53,259 nucleotides of DNA from a virus. Numbering within the stretch: the first letter of the stretch is position 1; each line of letters opens with the position of its first letter. The notes beneath the pieces are model-generated. The model worked only from the letters and a program-made list of their open reading frames with translations. It did not search any database and was not told where the DNA came from. Positions 24,545-38,672 of this stretch are shown here, in pieces. Made by a program: the position numbers and the translations under genes. The DNA lies in IMG/VR virus record IMGVR_UViG_3300029448_000057, positions 1 to 53,259 of that record, one strand, 5' to 3'.

Positions 24545-24755
24545 AGCGTTATTAGAATCGGTTACAGATACAAGTTTAGGGTTCATAATAAATTTCCCTT
24601 TATCTTGGTTAGTTTTATTTCTAATGTTGATGTTTACTCAAGACGCACTATTAATATCAATAATACAAACTACTGTAATAACTGTAACTGCTATTATCAG
24701 AAGATACATTACAAGAATTTATTTTAGAGATTTAACTTATAAGGAGGAACAATGA
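24528..24755 (+). CDS. two-TM small membrane protein (DUF7220-like)
   Basis: 75 residues. Two hydrophobic stretches, SLGFIINFPLSWLVLFLML (~16-34) and ALLISIIQTTVITVTAII (~40-57), then a basic/aromatic tail RRYITRIYFRDL. The DTSLGFIINF...RRYITR pattern is the one I associate with DUF7220 phage proteins, function unknown. It overlaps the end of the pyrophosphorylase-type gene by 17 bases and the start of the glycosyltransferase-like gene by four, so it is a passenger or partner in this cassette. Confidence 0.6.
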   Translation: MQIDRKALLESVTDTSLGFIINFPLSWLVLFLMLMFTQDALLISIIQTTVITVTAIIRRYITRIYFRDLTYKEEQ

Positions 24756-25516
24756 AAATTTATATTCCCACTAGAGGAAGACCGCTTAATCAAGAAACTT
24801 TAAAATGGTTTCCTAAAGAAATGCAGACAGATGGTTCTGTAGTCTTAGTAATAGACGAAGACGAAAAAGATGAATACTTTAAATATAAAGATACACCTAA
24901 GATGATTGTACCTAAAGACTGTATAGGTATAGGTCCAAAGCGTAAGTACATTGTAGAAAATACAGATGACTCTCGTATAGTTATGTTAGACGATGACTTA
25001 CGTTTTTATGTTCGTAAAAGTCCAACAGATTGGCACTTACGTTATCTAGAATCAAATGAGTACCCAGCCTTGTTTGGTTTGCTTGATGAGTGGATGAGTC
25101 AGGACTATGCTCATGTAGGAATTAGTGCTAGAGAAGGTAACAACCGTGTAGAAGATTTATCTGTAGAGAACACTAGGTATATGAGGGTATTAGGTTACAA
25201 CTTAGATGTTTTTCCTGATGACGTAGAGTGGGGGAGAACTAAAGTGATGGAGGATTTTGACATAGCCTTACAACTATTAAGAAGAGGTAGAGCCAGTAAG
25301 ATAAGTTTTTACTATGCTCAGGGTCAAAAGTCTTCGAACGCTAAAGGTGGGTGTAGTGAATGGAGAACTATTGATGTACATAATGAGGGGGCTGAAAGGC
25401 TGCATGAGTTACACCCTGATTATGTCAAGGTGGTTGAAAAACAAACTAAAACAGCTTGGAATGGATTACCTCGTAAGGATGTAATCATAAGTTGGAAAAA
25501 AGCATATAGAGGTTAA
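24752..25516 (+). CDS. GT-A fold glycosyltransferase-like protein
   Basis: 254 residues. N-terminus IYIPTRGRPLNQETL is a nucleotide-sugar-binding start for a GT-A glycosyltransferase, and a DDD at residues 80-82 (VMLDDDLRF) is the metal-binding DxD-type motif. KVMEDFDIALQLLRRGRASK later resembles the acceptor/catalytic ED segment of GT2-like enzymes. Its place between a thymine pyrophosphorylase-type gene and a ThyA-family gene recalls the TET/JBP-associated glycosyltransferases predicted to decorate hydroxymethylated bases. It could instead act on a cell or virion glycan. Sugar and acceptor cannot be read from sequence. An AGGAGGA ribosome site precedes the ATG. Confidence 0.7.
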   Translation: MKIYIPTRGRPLNQETLKWFPKEMQTDGSVVLVIDEDEKDEYFKYKDTPKMIVPKDCIGIGPKRKYIVENTDDSRIVMLDDDLRFYVRKSPTDWHLRYLESNEYPALFGLLDEWMSQDYAHVGISAREGNNRVEDLSVENTRYMRVLGYNLDVFPDDVEWGRTKVMEDFDIALQLLRRGRASKISFYYAQGQKSSNAKGGCSEWRTIDVHNEGAERLHELHPDYVKVVEKQTKTAWNGLPRKDVIISWKKAYRG

Positions 25517-25518
25517 AA

Positions 25519-26547
25519 ATGCAAGTATTAACAGTTAGGAACGTAGAGGATGCCTTCTTACAAGGTATGAACCTTTTACAAGAAGACCATAATATTGAAA
25601 TAACAAGGAATGGTCAAGCATATGTTTGTCCTGAACCTGTAACCACAATATTTACAGAGCCTACAGAAAGAGTTATTTTTTGGGAGGAAAGAGATGCTAA
25701 CCCCTTTTTCCATTTTATGGAGGGACTATGGATGTTAGCAGGTCGTAATGATCTAAAGTCCATGGAGTTTTATAACAAACGCATGAGAGAGTACAGTGAT
25801 GATGGTGAGATCTTATGGGGAGCTTACGGTTGGCGATGGAGAGAGTATTTTAATAAAGATCAGCTACAAATAATTATCGATAGGCTAAATAAAAATAAAT
25901 CAGACAGGCGATGTGTATTACAGATGTGGGATGCTGTAGAAGACTTAAATAGGAACGGTGTTGATGTGCCTTGTAATACCCATATATATTTCCTTGTCCG
26001 TCATTGTGAACAGATGGGCTACCCTGTATTAGAGATGACTGTCTGTAATAGGTCAAACGATATAATCTGGGGAGCGTATGGGGCAAACGCAGTACACCTT
26101 TCTATGTTACAAGAATACGTGGCTAGTGCTATAGGTGTAAAGGTCGGTAAGTATAGACAGATTAGTAATAACTATCATGCATATAAAAAGATATATGACG
26201 AAATATATGAAGAGATGATGAAAAGAGATGCCTTTGATTTTTATACAACAAAATATCTTTTATCAAAAAACCCTTATACAATAGAAGAAGTAGAGCCTTA
26301 TCAGATGGTAAATACAGATTACAAGAAGTGGACGAGTGACTTACACTCTTTCATAGATCGCAAACCTTTTACTGATATGAGTCCTGATACTGATCCCTTT
26401 TTCTTAGAAGTAGCGTGTCCTATACAAGACGCATGGTATTTATCCAAAGAAGTTAGTAAGGAAGAGGCTTTACTTGAAATACAATACTGTAAAGCAACCG
26501 ACTGGGCTAAAGCCTGCTTTGAGTGGCTCACTGCTCGTGTTAAATAA
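25519..26547 (+). CDS. thymidylate synthase-family enzyme (ThyA-like, possibly dUMP hydroxymethylase)
   Basis: 342 residues. The catalytic cysteine is in DVPCNTHIYFLV (C152), with RSNDIIWGAYGANAVHL behind it. N190, the likely counterpart of E. coli Asn177, keeps it a dUMP- rather than dCMP-type enzyme. NPFFHFMEGLWMLAGRNDL and ILWGAYGWRWR are the folate/dUMP pocket segments. The enzyme adds a one-carbon unit to dUMP using methylene-tetrahydrofolate, giving either dTMP or, in some phages, hydroxymethyl-dUMP. The surrounding modification genes make the second option attractive. It is longer than bacterial ThyA (264), with an extra C-terminal region. Confidence 0.85.
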   Translation: MQVLTVRNVEDAFLQGMNLLQEDHNIEITRNGQAYVCPEPVTTIFTEPTERVIFWEERDANPFFHFMEGLWMLAGRNDLKSMEFYNKRMREYSDDGEILWGAYGWRWREYFNKDQLQIIIDRLNKNKSDRRCVLQMWDAVEDLNRNGVDVPCNTHIYFLVRHCEQMGYPVLEMTVCNRSNDIIWGAYGANAVHLSMLQEYVASAIGVKVGKYRQISNNYHAYKKIYDEIYEEMMKRDAFDFYTTKYLLSKNPYTIEEVEPYQMVNTDYKKWTSDLHSFIDRKPFTDMSPDTDPFFLEVACPIQDAWYLSKEVSKEEALLEIQYCKATDWAKACFEWLTARVK

Positions 26548-26556
26548 GGAGATTCA

Positions 26557-27237
26557 ATGATACACCAATGGTCTTATAGCAGGTTATCCTGTTTTGAAAA
26601 ATGTCCCAAACAAGCTGAATTTAAATTTGTAAAAAGGATAAAGGAACCTGGAAGTCCAGCTATGGACCGTGGTAAAGATATGCATAAACTGTGTGAGGAA
26701 TACATCCGTGGGCACTTTGATGAAATACCAAAAGAGTTAAAAGACTTTGAAGACGGTTTTAATTTATTAAAAGACTTACATGAAAAGGGTCAAGTGATAT
26801 GTGAAAGTGACTGGGCTTTTACCAAAGAATGGGAAAAAACTGGTTGGTTTGAAGAGGATACTTGGGGCAGAGCTAAAGTAGATGCGTTTGTTTATGACGA
26901 GGGTAATAGTAAAGAAGCTAGGGTCATTGACTTTAAAACTGGTCGTTATGATGGTAATCAAGATGCACATAAAGAACAGTGTGAGCTATATGGTTCTATA
27001 GCTTTGAAACGCTACCCCGAACTAGAAAAAATTATTACAGAGATGTGGTATTTAGATCATAATAAGATTGACAAATATGTTTATGATCAAGACAGTATCA
27101 ATATAAAAAGAAATAAAATAGAAGTGAGGGCTATTGAGATGACAGAAGCTACTGAGTTTCCTGCTAAACCTCAAAAGTTCAAATGTAAATGGTGCTACTT
27201 TGGTAGACAAAATATGTGTAGAGAGGCTGCAGTATGA
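26557..27237 (+). CDS. Cas4/RecB-type PD-(D/E)XK nuclease with Fe-S cysteines
   Basis: 226 residues. WSYSRLSCFEKCP at the N-terminus, D109, then VIDFKTGR (D125, K127), the metal-binding core of the PD-(D/E)XK fold, and QCELYGSIALKRYP. Cysteines near both ends (C12 or C16, and C210, C213, C221 in KCKWCYFGRQNMC) match the 4Fe-4S arrangement of Cas4/AddB-like nucleases. The likely role is end resection in recombination. No cas1, cas2 or array is nearby, so it is not a CRISPR gene here. The start overlaps no gene; the stop overlaps the next gene by four. Confidence 0.85.
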   Translation: MIHQWSYSRLSCFEKCPKQAEFKFVKRIKEPGSPAMDRGKDMHKLCEEYIRGHFDEIPKELKDFEDGFNLLKDLHEKGQVICESDWAFTKEWEKTGWFEEDTWGRAKVDAFVYDEGNSKEARVIDFKTGRYDGNQDAHKEQCELYGSIALKRYPELEKIITEMWYLDHNKIDKYVYDQDSINIKRNKIEVRAIEMTEATEFPAKPQKFKCKWCYFGRQNMCREAAV

Positions 27238-27530: not shown

Positions 27531-29407
27531 TGTTACAAGAGTCTTTTTTTAAACCAGACTCTGATTGGAGTCCGCCTACAAGTTTTCCTAATCTAACTAC
27601 TGCTAAAGAAATAGCCATAGATTTAGAAACTTATGATCCTTTGCTACTTACTCATGGTCCAAGCTGGGCATTAGGTCAAGGTAGGATTATAGGTATCTGT
27701 GTCGCTACTGAAGGATACAAGGGTTATTTTCCTGTAGCTCATGAGAACGGTGCTAATTTAGATAAAGGTGTGGTTTACAGGTGGTTAGCTAATTTATTAG
27801 TTTGTAAGAACGATAAAATTTTTCATAACGCACAGTATGACGTAGGTTGGTTATTATCTGAAGGCTTTATTATTAATGGTAAGATACACGATACTATGAT
27901 GGCTGCTCCTTTAATAAATGAAAATGAGTACAGTTATTCATTAAATAATTTAGGTAAAAGGTTTTTAAATGAAATAAAAGATGAGTCCCTGTTGACAGAG
28001 GCAGCAGAGGCTTTAGGTATTAATCCTAAGTCAGAGATGTATAAATTAGAACCTAAGTATGTAGGTTTATATGGAGAACAAGATGCTGACTTAACTTACA
28101 GGTTATGGCAGGTATTAAAAAAGAAATTAGTAGAGGAGGGTGTAGAGGAAATATATGAGCTTGAGTCATCACTCATTAGAGTATTAATTGACATGCGTAA
28201 ACGTGGTGTAAGAGTTGACTTAGATAAAGCTGAACAGGTCGGTAAAAAACTAGAGAAGGAAGAAAACAAATTACTTGATCAAATTAAAAAAGATTATGGC
28301 TATCGCCCTGATCTATGGTCAGCAGCCTCTGTGGCACAGGTATTTGATAGAGCTGGGTTAAGCTACCCTACCTCGCCTAAATTAAAAGCTCCAAGTTTTA
28401 CAGCTGTGTGGTTAGAAGATCATAACCATAAGTTGCCTTTAGCTATCGGTAAGGCTAGAAAAATCAATAAAGCTAGAACTACTTTTATAGATAAGATGAT
28501 TATGGAACATCAGGTCAAAGGTAGGTTGCACGGTGAGTTACACCCATTAAGGTCAGACGACGGTGGTACTGTTACAGGAAGGTTTAGTTCAAGTAACCCT
28601 AACTTACAGCAAGTACCTGCTAGAGACCCAGAACTTGGACCTATGATACGTTCTTTGTTTTTACCTGAAGAAGATATGCACTGGGGTTGTTTTGATTACT
28701 CACAACAAGAACCTAGACTTACTGTGCATTATTCTGTAATGACTAATCAACAAGGGGCACAAGAAGCTGCAGATGAGTACCGTAACGAAAATGCAGACTT
28801 TCACCAGATAGTTGCTGACATGGCTAACATAAGTCGTAAAGAGGCAAAAGATATTAATCTTGGTCTAAGCTACGGTATGGGTAAAGAAAAGCTGACTAAG
28901 CAGTTAGGTATAAGTGTAGAAGAAGCGGAAAGGTTGTTTGAACAGTACCATGCAAGAGTGCCTTTTGTCCGTGGTCTACGAGACAGTGCAGCACGACTGG
29001 CTGCTAATAGAGGGTACATAACCACACTATTAGGTCGTAAGTGTAGGTTTAACTTATACGAGCCAAAGTTTGATAGAAATACTCCGTATCCTTACGAGAA
29101 AGCTATAGAGGTTTATGGAGATAAAATTAAAAGGGCTTTTACATATAAAGCTATGAATCGATTAATACAAGGTTCAGCAGCAGATATGACTAAGAAAGCA
29201 ATGTTAAATTTGTATAGGGAGGGGTTTTTAGCACATGCTCAAGTACACGATGAATTAGATATTTCAGTGGGGGATAAAAAAGAGTGTGACATAGTAGTTG
29301 AGATTATGCGTGACTGTGTTACACTTAAAGTTCCTAATAAAGTTGATGCTGAGATAGGTGTAAACTGGGGGAGTGTTGAAGATTATAAGGAGTATTTTGC
29401 TAAGTAA
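27530..29407 (+). CDS. polA: family A DNA polymerase with 3'-5' exonuclease
   Basis: 625 residues. The exonuclease DEDD motifs are D31-L-E33 (AIDLETYDP), HNAQYDVGW, and YGEQDADLTYRLW. In the polymerase, motif A is GCFDYSQQEPRLT (D389), motif B RKEAKDINLGLSYGMG, and motif C HAQVHDELDIS (H573-D574-E575). It lacks a 5'-3' exonuclease domain. In motif B the residue after INL's asparagine is Leu444, the position equivalent to E. coli Phe762, where phages carry Phe, Tyr or Leu. No CxxCxGxG DnaJ-like insert is seen. Genome replication enzyme. Its ATG overlaps the previous stop. Confidence 0.92.
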   Translation: MLQESFFKPDSDWSPPTSFPNLTTAKEIAIDLETYDPLLLTHGPSWALGQGRIIGICVATEGYKGYFPVAHENGANLDKGVVYRWLANLLVCKNDKIFHNAQYDVGWLLSEGFIINGKIHDTMMAAPLINENEYSYSLNNLGKRFLNEIKDESLLTEAAEALGINPKSEMYKLEPKYVGLYGEQDADLTYRLWQVLKKKLVEEGVEEIYELESSLIRVLIDMRKRGVRVDLDKAEQVGKKLEKEENKLLDQIKKDYGYRPDLWSAASVAQVFDRAGLSYPTSPKLKAPSFTAVWLEDHNHKLPLAIGKARKINKARTTFIDKMIMEHQVKGRLHGELHPLRSDDGGTVTGRFSSSNPNLQQVPARDPELGPMIRSLFLPEEDMHWGCFDYSQQEPRLTVHYSVMTNQQGAQEAADEYRNENADFHQIVADMANISRKEAKDINLGLSYGMGKEKLTKQLGISVEEAERLFEQYHARVPFVRGLRDSAARLAANRGYITTLLGRKCRFNLYEPKFDRNTPYPYEKAIEVYGDKIKRAFTYKAMNRLIQGSAADMTKKAMLNLYREGFLAHAQVHDELDISVGDKKECDIVVEIMRDCVTLKVPNKVDAEIGVNWGSVEDYKEYFAK

Positions 29408-32647: not shown

Positions 32648-32712
32648 TCCTTTACCATCATAACGATGTCGGGCTAAATAAGTTTACTTAATTAATTTAT
32701 ATGGAGGAACTT

Positions 32713-32847
32713 ATGAGTACAAAAGAAAAACGCATGACACCTGAAGAACGTAGACGTATCAGTAGCCAATACACTATCGCCCCTGCTTACAACAAGGGAG
32801 CCTATCAAGTTATACCTAAAAAAGACATCAAACATATAGGGAGGTAA
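32713..32847 (+). CDS. small basic hypothetical protein
   Basis: 44 residues, beginning MSTKEKRMTPEERRRISSQ and ending KKDIKHIGR. Preceded by ATGGAGGAACTT (good ribosome site GGAGG, seven bases away) and followed one base later by the next ATG, with GGGAGG at its end serving that gene. Composition is basic with a central Tyr/Pro/Ala section. I consider it a true gene because of the ribosome site and the tight spacing. Confidence 0.55.
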   Translation: MSTKEKRMTPEERRRISSQYTIAPAYNKGAYQVIPKKDIKHIGR

Positions 32848-32848
32848 C

Positions 32849-33157
32849 ATGACACAATACACTAACGAAGTTATAAGAGTTCACTTAATGCAAAAAGCTA
32901 AAGAGTGGGGCATGTCACCGATCATGTATTACTACCATGATGGTATAGCTGAAACAAGATATCAAGACGGTACTATAGAAGAATTACACAAGGGCGAGGA
33001 GAACCCACGTGTCTACCCTAGTGATTGGTCTGATGAAGATTATTTAGAACAGTTCATGCGTAGCGATGTGTTTAGGAGACAAGAAAAATATGAAGAGTGG
33101 CATAGTCTAAAAGTGGGTAAGGACGGGAGATTATATGATTCAATCATACAAGAATGA
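32849..33157 (+). CDS. hypothetical protein
   Basis: 102 residues, unrecognised. Amphipathic opening (TNEVIRVHLMQKAKEWGMSP), then Tyr-rich segments (MYYYHDGIAETRYQDG) and an acidic, Arg-containing C-terminal part (EQFMRSDVFRRQEKYEEW). No membrane segment and no metal motif. Ribosome site GGGAGG lies at the end of the preceding gene. Its end overlaps the next gene by 23 bases. Confidence 0.55.
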   Translation: MTQYTNEVIRVHLMQKAKEWGMSPIMYYYHDGIAETRYQDGTIEELHKGEENPRVYPSDWSDEDYLEQFMRSDVFRRQEKYEEWHSLKVGKDGRLYDSIIQE

Positions 33158-33713
33158 GATACGTCAGGATATTCATAATTGGATTAATAACTTTCTTAAT
33201 CATCCTAACCCAAACACTAGCGGTGAACTTCTCTGTCCATTTGCTAAATCTATACTCGACTCTGGGAAACTAAGAATAGAAGTCAACAGCACTTTATTTA
33301 GTCCTGCCTTTTACGACAAGATGATTCCTACTTTTGATCCTAGTAAAGAGGAAGTTTTAATACTTGCCTCTACTACTGATGATAGATCAAAAGCAGAGTT
33401 GTCTTCTTATTGTAAGTATGGTAACTATATACACTATTACAAAGATGATATTTATTTAATGGACTTTCACCCAGATAACAGTGATGAAGCTGAAGAGCAG
33501 TTTGGTACTAGTGACTATAGTGACGTTGATCCTGTTCCGTATACCATGCTGTTTGTACAAAAACTAAGTTCATTAGTGAAAGCATCAAGACAGCTACAGC
33601 TTAGAAATTATTATGATAAATGGGAACATCTTGATTATATTAATCTTGTAAAGCCTAGAGAAATACTCTGGAAAATGTTTAAGAATTATCATGCTAATAG
33701 GTTGACCAATTAG
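33135..33713 (+). CDS. hypothetical protein
   Basis: 192 residues, unrecognised. Helical N-terminus with IHNWINNFLNHPNPNT, then EVLILASTTDD and a Tyr-rich acidic middle (CKYGNYIHYYKDDIYLMDF), ending in a basic helix near LVKPREILWKMF. Possible alpha/beta fold but no catalytic signature. The start has GGGAG upstream and overlaps the previous gene. The 222 bases after it hold an RNA-structure candidate. Confidence 0.55.
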   Translation: MIQSYKNEIRQDIHNWINNFLNHPNPNTSGELLCPFAKSILDSGKLRIEVNSTLFSPAFYDKMIPTFDPSKEEVLILASTTDDRSKAELSSYCKYGNYIHYYKDDIYLMDFHPDNSDEAEEQFGTSDYSDVDPVPYTMLFVQKLSSLVKASRQLQLRNYYDKWEHLDYINLVKPREILWKMFKNYHANRLTN

Positions 33714-33726
33714 CATGACAATGAGA

Positions 33727-33853
33727 GACTGTCAGACTTCCTCTCCTGCTTGTTTGCTGGTGGGCTGCCCAAAGTTAGATGTGTGTGATATCCTTGACAG
33801 TCGGGGTTTATTGTTTTTACCTTTCATAGCGGATTAATCTAACACAGCAAACA
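33727..33853 (+). ncRNA. candidate structured RNA with pseudoknot
   Basis: In the 222-base gene gap three perfect inverted pairs interlock: GACTGTCA (33727-33734) with TGACAGTC (33795-33802); TGTTTGCTG (33751-33759) with CAGCAAACA (33845-33853); and GTTAGAT (33774-33780) with ATCTAAC (33837-33843). The second and third stack almost end to end (one-base gap on the 3' side), and the first pairs into the loop they enclose, which makes a pseudoknot. GGGCTGCCC sits in the 5' bulge. Could be a small RNA or a leader element for the gene at 33936. Confidence 0.5.
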
Positions 33854-33935
33854 CTCCCCTAAAACTTAGGATAATGCTAAGGACTAAAACCGATCTAGGT
33901 AATAATTACTTTTTAACTATAAAGGAGTAAATATT

Positions 33936-34322
33936 ATGAATCAAGAACTTAAAGCTAAAGTCAAAGACTCAATGCGTCTTTGGTATGAGACCTGTGTCTT
34001 TGTTGACGGTCATGGTTTTTACCGTGCTGAGATGTACAAAGATGCTGGAGTACCTAGCGAGTTAGTTGATGACCTCGTCAGAAACCATAAATCTAAACCT
34101 ATAGGTTACGATAACCCTATCGGCAAGGAAACCATTTTTGGTAGTGACGGTCAAGTCATGGATGAAACTTATGCTGTGTATCATAATGACTTTCTTGCTG
34201 CTATCTGCGTTGCTTTAGGCTTAGACGCTACGAGTAATGCTTGGGGTAGGGGATTTAGGTCTAAGGAACTTTATAATCGCATACGAAAATTTAAGGAGGG
34301 TTTAGAAAATGAGCTTGTTTAA
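33936..34322 (+). CDS. hypothetical protein
   Basis: 128 residues, unrecognised. Contains RLWYETCVFVDGHGFYRAEMY, DAGVPSELVDDLVRN and ALGLDATSNAWGRGFRSKEL, suggesting a small mixed alpha/beta or helical domain. A strong AAAGGAG ribosome site precedes the ATG, and a TAATGCTAAGGA repeat element lies in the upstream gap (33872-33884), shared with two later gaps. The end overlaps a small zinc-ribbon gene. Confidence 0.55.
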   Translation: MNQELKAKVKDSMRLWYETCVFVDGHGFYRAEMYKDAGVPSELVDDLVRNHKSKPIGYDNPIGKETIFGSDGQVMDETYAVYHNDFLAAICVALGLDATSNAWGRGFRSKELYNRIRKFKEGLENELV

Positions 34323-34431
34323 ATATGAGGATCCAGTTATTGAGTGTGACTACTGTGGTAAAGAAGCTGTAGTACAACAATCAGGGATATTTTTATGTGG
34401 TTGTTGTTCGGGGGTGTACAATGGTAACTAA
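34309..34431 (+). CDS. tiny zinc-ribbon protein
   Basis: 40 residues, not a standard-length gene but well placed. VIECDYCGKEAVV and LCGCCSG give two CxxC pairs about 16 residues apart, a typical zinc-ribbon spacing. AAGGAGGG lies about nine bases upstream of the ATG. It overlaps the preceding gene by 14 bases and the following by 11. Probably a small nucleic-acid- or protein-binding ribbon; function unknown. Confidence 0.6.
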   Translation: MSLFKYEDPVIECDYCGKEAVVQQSGIFLCGCCSGVYNGN

Positions 34432-36181: not shown

Positions 36182-36194
36182 ACAGTCTACTGAC

Positions 36195-36230
36195 TAATGC
36201 TAGGAATGCTAGCGATCCCGCCTATACTTT
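36195..36230 (+). repeat. intergenic repeat element, copy A
   Basis: Thirty-six bases beginning TAATGCTAGGAATGCTAG and ending CCTATACTTT. Copy B (36939-36974) matches at 28 of 36 positions without gaps, including TAATGCTAGGAA, GATCC and TATACTT. It lies just before the AAGGAGG of the next gene. A diverged third copy (TAATGCTAAGGA) starts at 33872. Possibly a phage promoter whose -10 is TATACT. Confidence 0.65.
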
Positions 36231-36261
36231 ATTAATAACTAATTAAGGAGGTTACAACAAA

Positions 36262-36941: not shown

Positions 36942-36974
36942 TGCTAGGAAGGAATGTGATCCAGCTTATACTTA
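36939..36974 (+). repeat. intergenic repeat element, copy B
   Basis: TAATGCTAGGAAGGAATG then GATCC and TTATACTTA, 28/36 identical to copy A at 36195. It overlaps the preceding stop codon and lies upstream of AAGGAGG and the next ATG. Same role as copy A is likely. Confidence 0.65.
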
Positions 36975-36998
36975 TATTTTAACTATTAAGGAGGTTTT

Positions 36999-37547: not shown

Positions 37548-37561
37548 GTGATTACCTATTA

Positions 37562-37597
37562 GGAGCAGGCAGGAATGTCTGCTCCTTTTTTATTTTT
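37562..37597 (+). terminator. strong rho-independent terminator
   Basis: GGAGCAGGCA (37562-37571), GGAA tetraloop, TGTCTGCTCC (37576-37585; ten pairs with one G-U), then TTTTTTATTTTT. Ends the early-type operon before the repeat-rich region. Confidence 0.9.
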
Positions 37598-38138
37598 CCA
37601 CATCTTTTACTAATAAGCCAATAACCATAGGACTGGAACGACTGTAATAGATCCTTCTAGTGTGGATATTGGCTATTATATTGGCGACCTATTGACTAGG
37701 ACGATGTAATATGGACCATGGTGGGTGGTTCTTGGGGCGTTATACTTAGTGAACATAAAGCATGTGAAAGATAAATGATATATGACTTAGGAATATTCTA
37801 GACCCTATATAAGAACCAGCAATCCACGGACTCAGACACACGACCCAAAAGCTATGAACCATGGACCATGAACTATGGCAGATGATCGCATTGGCTAATA
37901 TTCACATCACATTGTGATCGCACTCGCACACCCCCCAAGATCCATGGACCATGTGATCATGATCGTGTCTCTTGGGAACTTGTACTTGGACCATTGACCA
38001 TCGCACTCGCATCGCATTGTGATCGCACAGTTACGATTGTCAGGGTCGATCGCAGATCGCATCAGAACCTTGGATTATGGACGGTGGTCAGTGGTGCGTG
38101 GTTATTGGAACTTGGACTTGCACTTGATTAGGACGGAA
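37598..38138. other. non-coding repeat-dense region, origin or master control candidate
   Basis: 541 bases without a credible gene, visibly richer in G and C than its surroundings. Repeats seen: GATCGCA five times (37884, 37916, 38021, and tandem 38048 and 38055); ATCGCA extra at 38000 and 38011; a 14-base direct repeat CATTGTGATCGCAC at 37910 and 38015; a 12-base repeat ATCGCACTCGCA at 37917 and 38000; ATGGACCATG at 37711, 37861 and 37944, two of them inside the palindrome CATGGACCATG; and GGAACTTG at 37975 and 38107. It lies between an early-type terminator and the minus-strand gene, with A+T-rich sequence beyond 38380. This suits an iteron-type origin or a packaging or regulatory locus. 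Confidence 0.65.
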
Positions 38139-38166
38139 AAAAGAAGGGGGGGCTTTTGACCCCCCC
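38135..38166 (-). terminator. minus-strand rho-independent terminator
   Basis: Seven G (38146-38152) and seven C (38160-38166) with a CTTTTGA loop. On the minus strand the stem is followed by TTCTTTTTTCC. It ends the small minus-strand gene and argues that this gene is transcribed. Confidence 0.8.
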
Positions 38167-38173
38167 GACTTAC

Positions 38174-38365
38174 TTAGGATTGATACTTGATAAATCCGTT
38201 TTTAAGGGCGTAGCTGAAATCAGCTTTTACCCCTAGCTTTTGATCCTTAGCCTTTTGAAAAGTAAGACCAACCCAGGACTTATACATACCTACGTTATGT
38301 TCAGCCCTAACCCTAGCGTAATTATCGCCTAAAACGAGTTTTTTATTAAAATCAATATTTTTCAT
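38174..38365 (-). CDS. small minus-strand hypothetical protein
   Basis: 63 residues, MKNIDFNKKLVLGDNYARV then AEHNVGMYKSWVGLTFQKAKD and a final NGFIKYQS. Basic, mixed alpha/beta, unrecognised. Evidence that it is real: a terminator immediately downstream in its own direction, and a TTTACT-17-TAAAAT promoter-like pair upstream on the minus strand (38467 to 38439). A control protein, antisense to nothing and facing the origin-like repeats, is possible (inferred from place only). Confidence 0.65.
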   Translation of the reverse strand: MKNIDFNKKLVLGDNYARVRAEHNVGMYKSWVGLTFQKAKDQKLGVKADFSYALKNGFIKYQS

Positions 38366-38398
38366 AGTATTACCTATATTAAGGGTGATTATCTTTAT

Positions 38399-38433
38399 TA
38401 AGTTAATAAATACCCTTTTAACTTATTAACTTA
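38399..38433. promoter_or_regulatory. 11-base inverted repeat, operator candidate
   Basis: TAAGTTAATAA (38399-38409) and TTATTAACTTA (38423-38433) are a perfect 11-base inverted pair with a 13-base spacer, between the minus-strand promoter-like pair and the ATG of the minus gene. A good operator candidate, or a leader hairpin. Confidence 0.55.
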
Positions 38434-38438
38434 TATAT

Positions 38439-38467
38439 ATTTTAGTATACTAGTTAATCAAAGTAAA
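38439..38467 (-). promoter_or_regulatory. TTTACT-17-TAAAAT promoter-like box, minus strand
   Basis: On the minus strand TTTACT (38467-38462), 17 bases, TAAAAT (38444-38439), pointing toward the small minus-strand gene. Matches the TTTACT-17 spacing of other gaps in the window. Confidence 0.5.
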
Positions 38468-38598
38468 CTATAAATAAAAGAAAATAAATTCTAATATATG
38501 TATATAACTTTTAGTTATATGCCCCCCCACCCCCTTTACTTTCGTGGTGCCCACCCACCCGACCCTTGTTAAGTTTTTGACTCTCATTTACCTATGAT

Positions 38599-38627
38599 TT
38601 TACTTTACCCCCCAACCGCTATATGAT
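38599..38627 (+). promoter_or_regulatory. TTTACT-17-TATGAT promoter of the structural operon (candidate)
   Basis: TTTACT (38599-38604), 17 bases, TATGAT (38622-38627), 45 bases before the first gene of the head operon. Includes the 10-mer TTTACTTTAC also present in the palindrome at 23182. Flanked upstream by a C-rich tract (38521-38565) of unknown meaning. Confidence 0.55.
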
Positions 38628-38672
38628 AGTTTTCAGAGACAACGACAACAAAAAATTTTTTGCAAAATTTTT

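Follow-up and report, generated by a model that had tools for sequence, protein, structure and literature searches.

We find that positions 33727–33853 on the plus strand of the virus record IMGVR_UViG_3300029448_000057 very probably encode a conserved, structured and pseudoknotted RNA of 127 nt; the comparison of sequences on which this reading is based leads us to put its probability at about 0.93. The record, 53,259 bases long and analysed over its full length, is referred to as the window. A distant phage carries a counterpart of 130 nt at the syntenic position, recovered as a covariance-model match, and this relative keeps 28 of the 29 predicted base pairs, 11 of them with both letters changed. 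Since the fold, including the knot, is kept despite so many changed letters, the RNA is taken to be real, and the functional pseudoknotted RNA proposed in an earlier note on the window alone is thus supported by conservation.

The fold is built on three perfect inverted pairs of 8, 9 and 7 bases described in the earlier note, all of which are present in the window, with the strand order a < b < c < a′ < c′ < b′ as it was given there. Stem a (8 bp) pairs 33727–33734 with 33795–33802, stem b (9 bp) pairs 33751–33759 with 33845–33853, and stem c (7 bp) pairs 33774–33780 with 33837–33843, all on the plus strand. The topology is that of an H-type pseudoknot, in which stem a crosses with the stem pair b + c (9 + 7 bp), with a 14-nt bulge (the b–c insertion, 33760–33773) between b and c on one side and one conserved A (33844, between c′ and b′) on the other. 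Stems a and b are joined by a pyrimidine-rich loop (33735–33750), which is 16 nt long and UCCUC-rich in both sequences. Directly 3′ of stem a lies a further hairpin, P4 (33803–33823, with 33803–33807 paired to 33819–33823); neither this hairpin nor the conserved unpaired stretches and the possible small hairpin 3′ of stem c, both described below, had been seen in the earlier note. Segment lengths are equal in the window and the relative save at one junction.

The covariance model that led to the relative was initially made from the window only, with two identical rows and the nested stems, and without stem a. It was searched against whole records (n = 20) behind terminase-related and other loci; those behind TerL-related loci had to be taken in full, since the element is located farther out than the 10-kb flanks, and it was there that the match was found. 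Strong matches were obtained in 3 of these 20 records, i.e. a window-identical contig and two IMG/VR phage contigs, IMGVR_UViG_3300025101_000038 (G009, the record behind L056; match at 24662–24807) and IMGVR_UViG_3300030380_004437 (G001, the record behind L013; match at 28649–28794), both at full length and 35.3 bits, with E-values of 2.5e-7 and 3.1e-7, respectively. A window-only model to which P4 was added gave 55.4 bits (E 4e-12). Both matches are flanked by homologues of the same two genes as in the window (44% and 39% identity), and the shared order runs from the small terminase (87% identity) through the phrog_28122 gene (45%), the RNA, the 128-aa gene (39%) and a zinc-ribbon gene (48%) to a 60-aa gene (65%). 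Because G009 and G001 are identical over the 526 nt compared, they were counted as one independent sequence, and the covariation described here is that between two distinct sequences, with one further contig identical to the window.

Other search routes were also followed. A blastn search against INPHARED gave no relative of the RNA, tblastn of the neighbouring genes gave no match except four distant relatives of the upstream gene, a locus search with the two flanking proteins returned only the window-identical contig, and exact DNA pattern searches returned chance matches or that same contig; for the 120 exact-pattern stretches, the loci were model-searched for the part L081–L160. No match was found with model R1 among 50 records, nor with model R3 among 50 further records, one of which was a bacterial genome, or, under stricter filters, among the 398 genomes examined from a single bacterial phylum; the viral records searched include many fragments. 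A weak model match in MW574966.1 (E 0.0043) lies within an annotated gene and misses most pairs, and was taken as chance, as were three matches at E 0.3–0.9, three at E 0.33–0.61 and other weak ones.

The two sequences align without gaps over the 97 nt that run from stem a through P4, and 50 of these letters are identical. This alignment was drawn by hand and is simpler than that of the alignment program, which, like the models, was ignorant of stem a and placed its 5′ strand two columns off, with compensating gaps. In the relative, 15 of the predicted pairs are the same, 2 show one-sided changes, 11 show two-sided changes and 1, the outermost pair of stem b, is broken. Compensatory changes among relatives, which the earlier note had named as a check, were found in every stem: all 8 pairs of the crossing stem a are kept with 5 two-sided changes, 8 of the 9 pairs of stem b with 2, all 7 of stem c with 1, and all 5 of P4 with 3. 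When the relative was shuffled 20,000 times, 11.6 of the 29 pairs were formed on average and 21 at most, and full pairing of stem a (8/8) was reached in 19 of the 20,000 shuffles. When only the 47 letters that differ within the 97-nt segment were permuted, the 13 pairs of stem a and P4 were all formed in 2 of 20,000 cases, and sliding strand a′ by 1 to 6 bases left 1 to 5 of the 8 pairs in the relative.

As to the origin of these stems, a, b and c had been drawn on the window in the earlier note, and P4 was drawn after viewing both sequences. For b, c and P4 together, a pair-count tool gave 100% of cells paired versus 34–46% in slid positions, with 9 of 500 shuffles as high, in an alignment that sets the outermost pair of b against a gap. 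For P4 alone, 67 of 500 shuffles were as high, a control that is weak with two sequences. On the strength of its changed and still matching pairs, the predicted P4 hairpin is also supported.

The earlier note had further held that the joint arrangement of the stems was suggestive of a functional RNA. The stems are real to judge from the relative; from the window by itself, this part of the argument is weak. When the 222-base gap was put through 2000 dinucleotide shuffles, the same topology with at least 24 bp appeared 8 times, and any three-stem pseudoknot of that size 25 times. A scan of the full 53 kb returned the topology 4 times, of which 3 fall within genes, and any such pseudoknot 18 times, so that the arrangement alone is approximately what would be expected in a stretch of that length. 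Folding energies, the comparison with shuffled controls that the earlier note had also proposed, were no better than those of shuffled sequence, with or without the pseudoknot. This is one of the two outcomes that the earlier note had named as counting against its reading; the other, a lack of compensatory changes, did not occur. For the minimum free energy, z was +0.45 over the gap and +0.33 over 33720–33862, i.e. stability is not in excess. In a heuristic pseudoknot-capable folder the knot of the earlier note was the best structure, and equally low energies were reached by 69 of 157 and 68 of 200 shuffles; for the 127-nt element 237 of 300 shuffles were as low or lower, and for the relative 31 of 300, all of these pseudoknot energies being home-made with a fixed penalty of 7 kcal/mol and indicative only. 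We gave covariation precedence over energy because it is a direct test of pairing, and comparison of energies with shuffles is a weak one for pseudoknots. The shuffle counts, the three other places in the window and the unexceptional energies are what a functionless chance set of inverted repeats would produce, and that explanation is nevertheless very improbable in the face of the pairs kept, and changed on both sides, in a syntenic relative.

Besides the stems, several unpaired stretches are conserved between the two sequences: the UCCUC-rich loop, the CCAAA that ends the b–c insertion in both, GUGUGUGA, a UUA, the single A that separates c′ from b′, and the U-rich loop of P4. These point to a core that may be held by tertiary contacts. 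The segment with GUGUGUGA (33781–33791, plus strand) may itself fold into a hairpin of 4 bp, reading GUGU-GUG-AUAU in the window and GUGU-GUG-ACAC in the relative, with 4/4 pairs in both; the chance of 4/4 pairs in a random 11-mer is 0.022. RNAalifold, run on the model-fitted alignment, returned b, c, P4 and this small hairpin, and since the alignment had been fitted to b, c and P4 beforehand, what this result chiefly adds is the small hairpin. We regard it as possibly real. Two other stems of the window, GAGAG/CTCTC around a and the internal TGGG/CCCA hairpin between b and c, are absent from the relative and were rejected. A tentative proposal, which we would not rate highly, is that marine phages have an undescribed class of compact RNAs, pseudoknotted and built around a core that binds a ligand or is catalytic, and that the element, as a member of it, acts as a phage-encoded switch or a ribozyme. 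In this proposal the core would consist of the conserved GUGUGUGA, CCAAA, UUA and P4-loop stretches, which an H-type pseudoknot and its embedded hairpins would hold in place.

The gap in which the RNA lies (33714–33935, 222 bases) has a 192-aa gene as its 5′ neighbour and a 128-aa gene as its 3′ neighbour, all on the plus strand. It is otherwise geneless, as the earlier note had stated: a frame of 40 codons at 33715–33837 is without coding signal, scores below 99.85% of same-size in-frame windows and has equal GC at its three codon positions, unlike the genes of the phage. In the relative, a frame of 50 codons runs open through the RNA, in a different register with respect to it, and the two phages therefore conserve neither a small gene nor a product of frameshifting. 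These frames bear on the notion of a recoding signal, by which the pseudoknot past the stop codon would stimulate read-through or frameshifting of the upstream gene. Its position just 3′ of the stop, with the two frames open across the RNA, would suit such a role; still, the read-through extensions are short and unlike each other, the +1 frames share no peptide (the one in the window having no coding signal), and a slippery site common to both sequences was not seen by inspection, so that recoding is exceedingly improbable. A terminator-like hairpin at 33792–33806 of the window has no counterpart in the relative, and the attenuator reading was therefore dropped; in addition, no Shine–Dalgarno or terminator arrangement common to window and relative, and no shared expression platform, was found.

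The record is that of a marine bacteriophage, whose large terminase shares 60.6% identity with its counterpart in Pelagibacter phage HTVC027P and 60.7% with the one in seawater phage 023Pt_psg01. The upstream gene (33135–33713, plus strand) belongs to phrog_28122, of which the function is not known, and is 31% identical to a gene of Puniceispirillum phage HMO-2011. Its stop codon lies 13 nt 5′ of stem a in the window and 3 nt from the start of the RNA in the relative. Between the end of the RNA and the start of the downstream gene there are 82 nt in the window and about 250 nt in the relative, and this spacer is not conserved, being occupied by a 62-codon frame in the relative and by a repeat-like leader in the window. 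The downstream 128-aa gene (33936–34322, plus strand) is also of a function not known: no explanatory family was found for its protein in Pfam, PHROG or PADLOC searches, and the fold prediction (pLDDT 42) is uninformative. A small zinc-ribbon-like gene (34309–34428) overlaps it in the window, and in the relative (L320 12–521, minus strand) the two form one fused frame of 169 aa.

Among the 20 records searched first, 3 carried the RNA, the downstream gene was confined to these 3, and 6 held the upstream family. A set of 50 records, not including the window itself, was also searched for these three features: the RNA was present in 2, the downstream gene was again confined to these, and 10 records held the upstream family, 8 of which had been included because of that gene. 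The RNA thus goes with the downstream gene and not with the upstream family, a co-occurrence that comprises two lineages and is suggestive of a link between the RNA and the downstream gene rather than the upstream family. Being tied to the downstream module in this way, the RNA is read by us, with moderate confidence, as a cis-acting intercistronic regulatory element. It would be transcribed within a polycistronic mRNA, from the coding strand and right after the upstream stop, and would act in cis on the downstream module, i.e. the 128-aa gene and the neighbouring zinc-ribbon gene, either as a protein-bound translational operator or as a ligand switch.

Two other roles have to be weighed against this positional evidence. 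The RNA might protect or delimit an mRNA end, as an exonuclease block or a processing site for the transcript of the upstream gene; this would agree with the short distances from the upstream stop and would suit a pseudoknot with no obvious expression platform, yet 8 of the 10 records holding the upstream family are without the RNA, and we consider the role unlikely. Somewhat better placed, although still doubtful, is a trans-acting small RNA cut from the mRNA, whose pyrimidine-rich loop (UCCUC...CUGCUU, 33737–33751) would bind Shine–Dalgarno-like sites in messages of the phage or the host. In both sequences this loop is rich in UCCUC and left unpaired by the shared structure, and the element is a self-contained domain with flanks that are not conserved; on the RNA's strand of the window, however, there is neither a promoter-like site 5′ nor a terminator 3′, and synteny and co-occurrence with the downstream gene fit a cis element better.

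Some further features of the region were noted in passing. The stop codon of the upstream gene lies within a 10-bp hairpin (33690–33719), and part of the 3′ arm of this hairpin (33710–33716) can alternatively pair with 33874–33880, beyond the RNA. A frame of 44 codons at 32712–32845, omitted from the listing of frames of 60 aa, falls within 32737–32852, where the DNA is 84% identical to G001 near 26820, at a different position in the gene cluster; this frame is probably a real small gene that was relocated. A leader is repeated at 33872–33935, 36182–36261 and 36942–36998 of the window and at 25784, 25056 and 22561 of G001, with the consensus GATCC-N3-(C/T)TATACTT, a TAGGGAT on its 5′ side in some copies, and then AAGGAG and a start codon. 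In G001 this gives a near palindrome, GGGATC...GATCCC; exact copies lie on the gene strand in both the window and G001, and the copy 3′ of the RNA is degenerate. This leader looks like a phage promoter with an operator. Lastly, 1,125 bases at 37548–38672 (39% GC) hold no listed gene and contain ATGGACCATG-like and TGTGATCGCAC repeat units, long imperfect inverted repeats, C-rich blocks and, on both strands, strong hairpins with T runs after them; this segment is perhaps a replication origin or another RNA.

Riboswitches have been described as rare in phages (PMC9004378). The present element is a structured RNA that was seen by eye in a single sequence and later confirmed by syntenic covariation, and its crossing stem is a feature that energy-based screens would miss. 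If it is a switch, an operator or a ribozyme, it would provide a handle on the regulation of a module of unknown genes in these marine phages, and the prediction of pairs, 28 of 29 being kept, makes tests by compensatory mutation straightforward.

The RNA fits no catalogued Rfam family. With Rfam 15 there were 0 matches at the gathering cut-off over the whole window, permissive scans of the window and relative elements gave unrelated best matches far below the cut-off, and models of HDV-like ribozymes and of the preQ1-II/III and SAM-II riboswitches gave nothing at E ≤ 10 for either sequence; ARAGORN found 0 tRNA or tmRNA genes in the window. An H-type pseudoknot forms the core of the preQ1-II/III and SAM-II riboswitches, and in preQ1-II/III a hairpin is embedded between the crossing strands. 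The element described here has a core of the same type, with P4 placed like that embedded hairpin, but has longer stems and joining regions, and its last strand is without a Shine–Dalgarno sequence common to both sequences.

HDV-like ribozymes have the strand order P1-P2-P3-P1′-P4-P2′, with a pyrimidine L3 that forms P1.1, a short J1/2 and a catalytic C in J4/2. A self-cleaving or mRNA-processing ribozyme with this kind of order (a, b/c, small hairpin, a′, P4, c′/b′) could be envisaged for the present RNA by analogy, the more so as its long unpaired stretches are fully conserved; the likeness in order holds only if the 4-bp hairpin at 33781–33791 is real. Against this, and besides the null result with the HDV-like models, the a–b joining region that would correspond to J1/2 is 16 nt long, P4 abuts stem a without a preceding junction, the GUG loop of the small hairpin has neither the P1.1 signature nor a conserved CC, and the cytosines of the last junction, corresponding to J4/2, are not aligned. 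We therefore hold a ribozyme of this type to be rather improbable.

The portions of the open-licence literature consulted, including those of a paper on HMO-2011-type phages (PMC9038755), do not describe an element of this kind. A glutamine riboswitch next to a tmRNA is carried by marine phage Melnitz and phages related to it (PMC9004378), evidence that structured regulatory RNAs do exist in phages of streamlined marine bacteria; that case involves a known riboswitch class and a tmRNA, neither of which was found in the window by the Rfam and ARAGORN scans. The nearest functional precedent, by analogy, would be the gene 32 operator of T4 and RB69, an intercistronic phage pseudoknot through which the gene for the single-stranded DNA-binding protein is regulated autogenously (PMC535899). 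The gene 32 pseudoknot, present in both phages, measures ∼28 nt and is followed by UUAAA repeats (PMC535899), whereas the RNA described here has 127 nt and four stems and precedes a gene for a 128-aa protein of no assigned function. As in gene 32, a phage pseudoknot lies between two genes and upstream of a gene in the same orientation, here on a putative common transcript.
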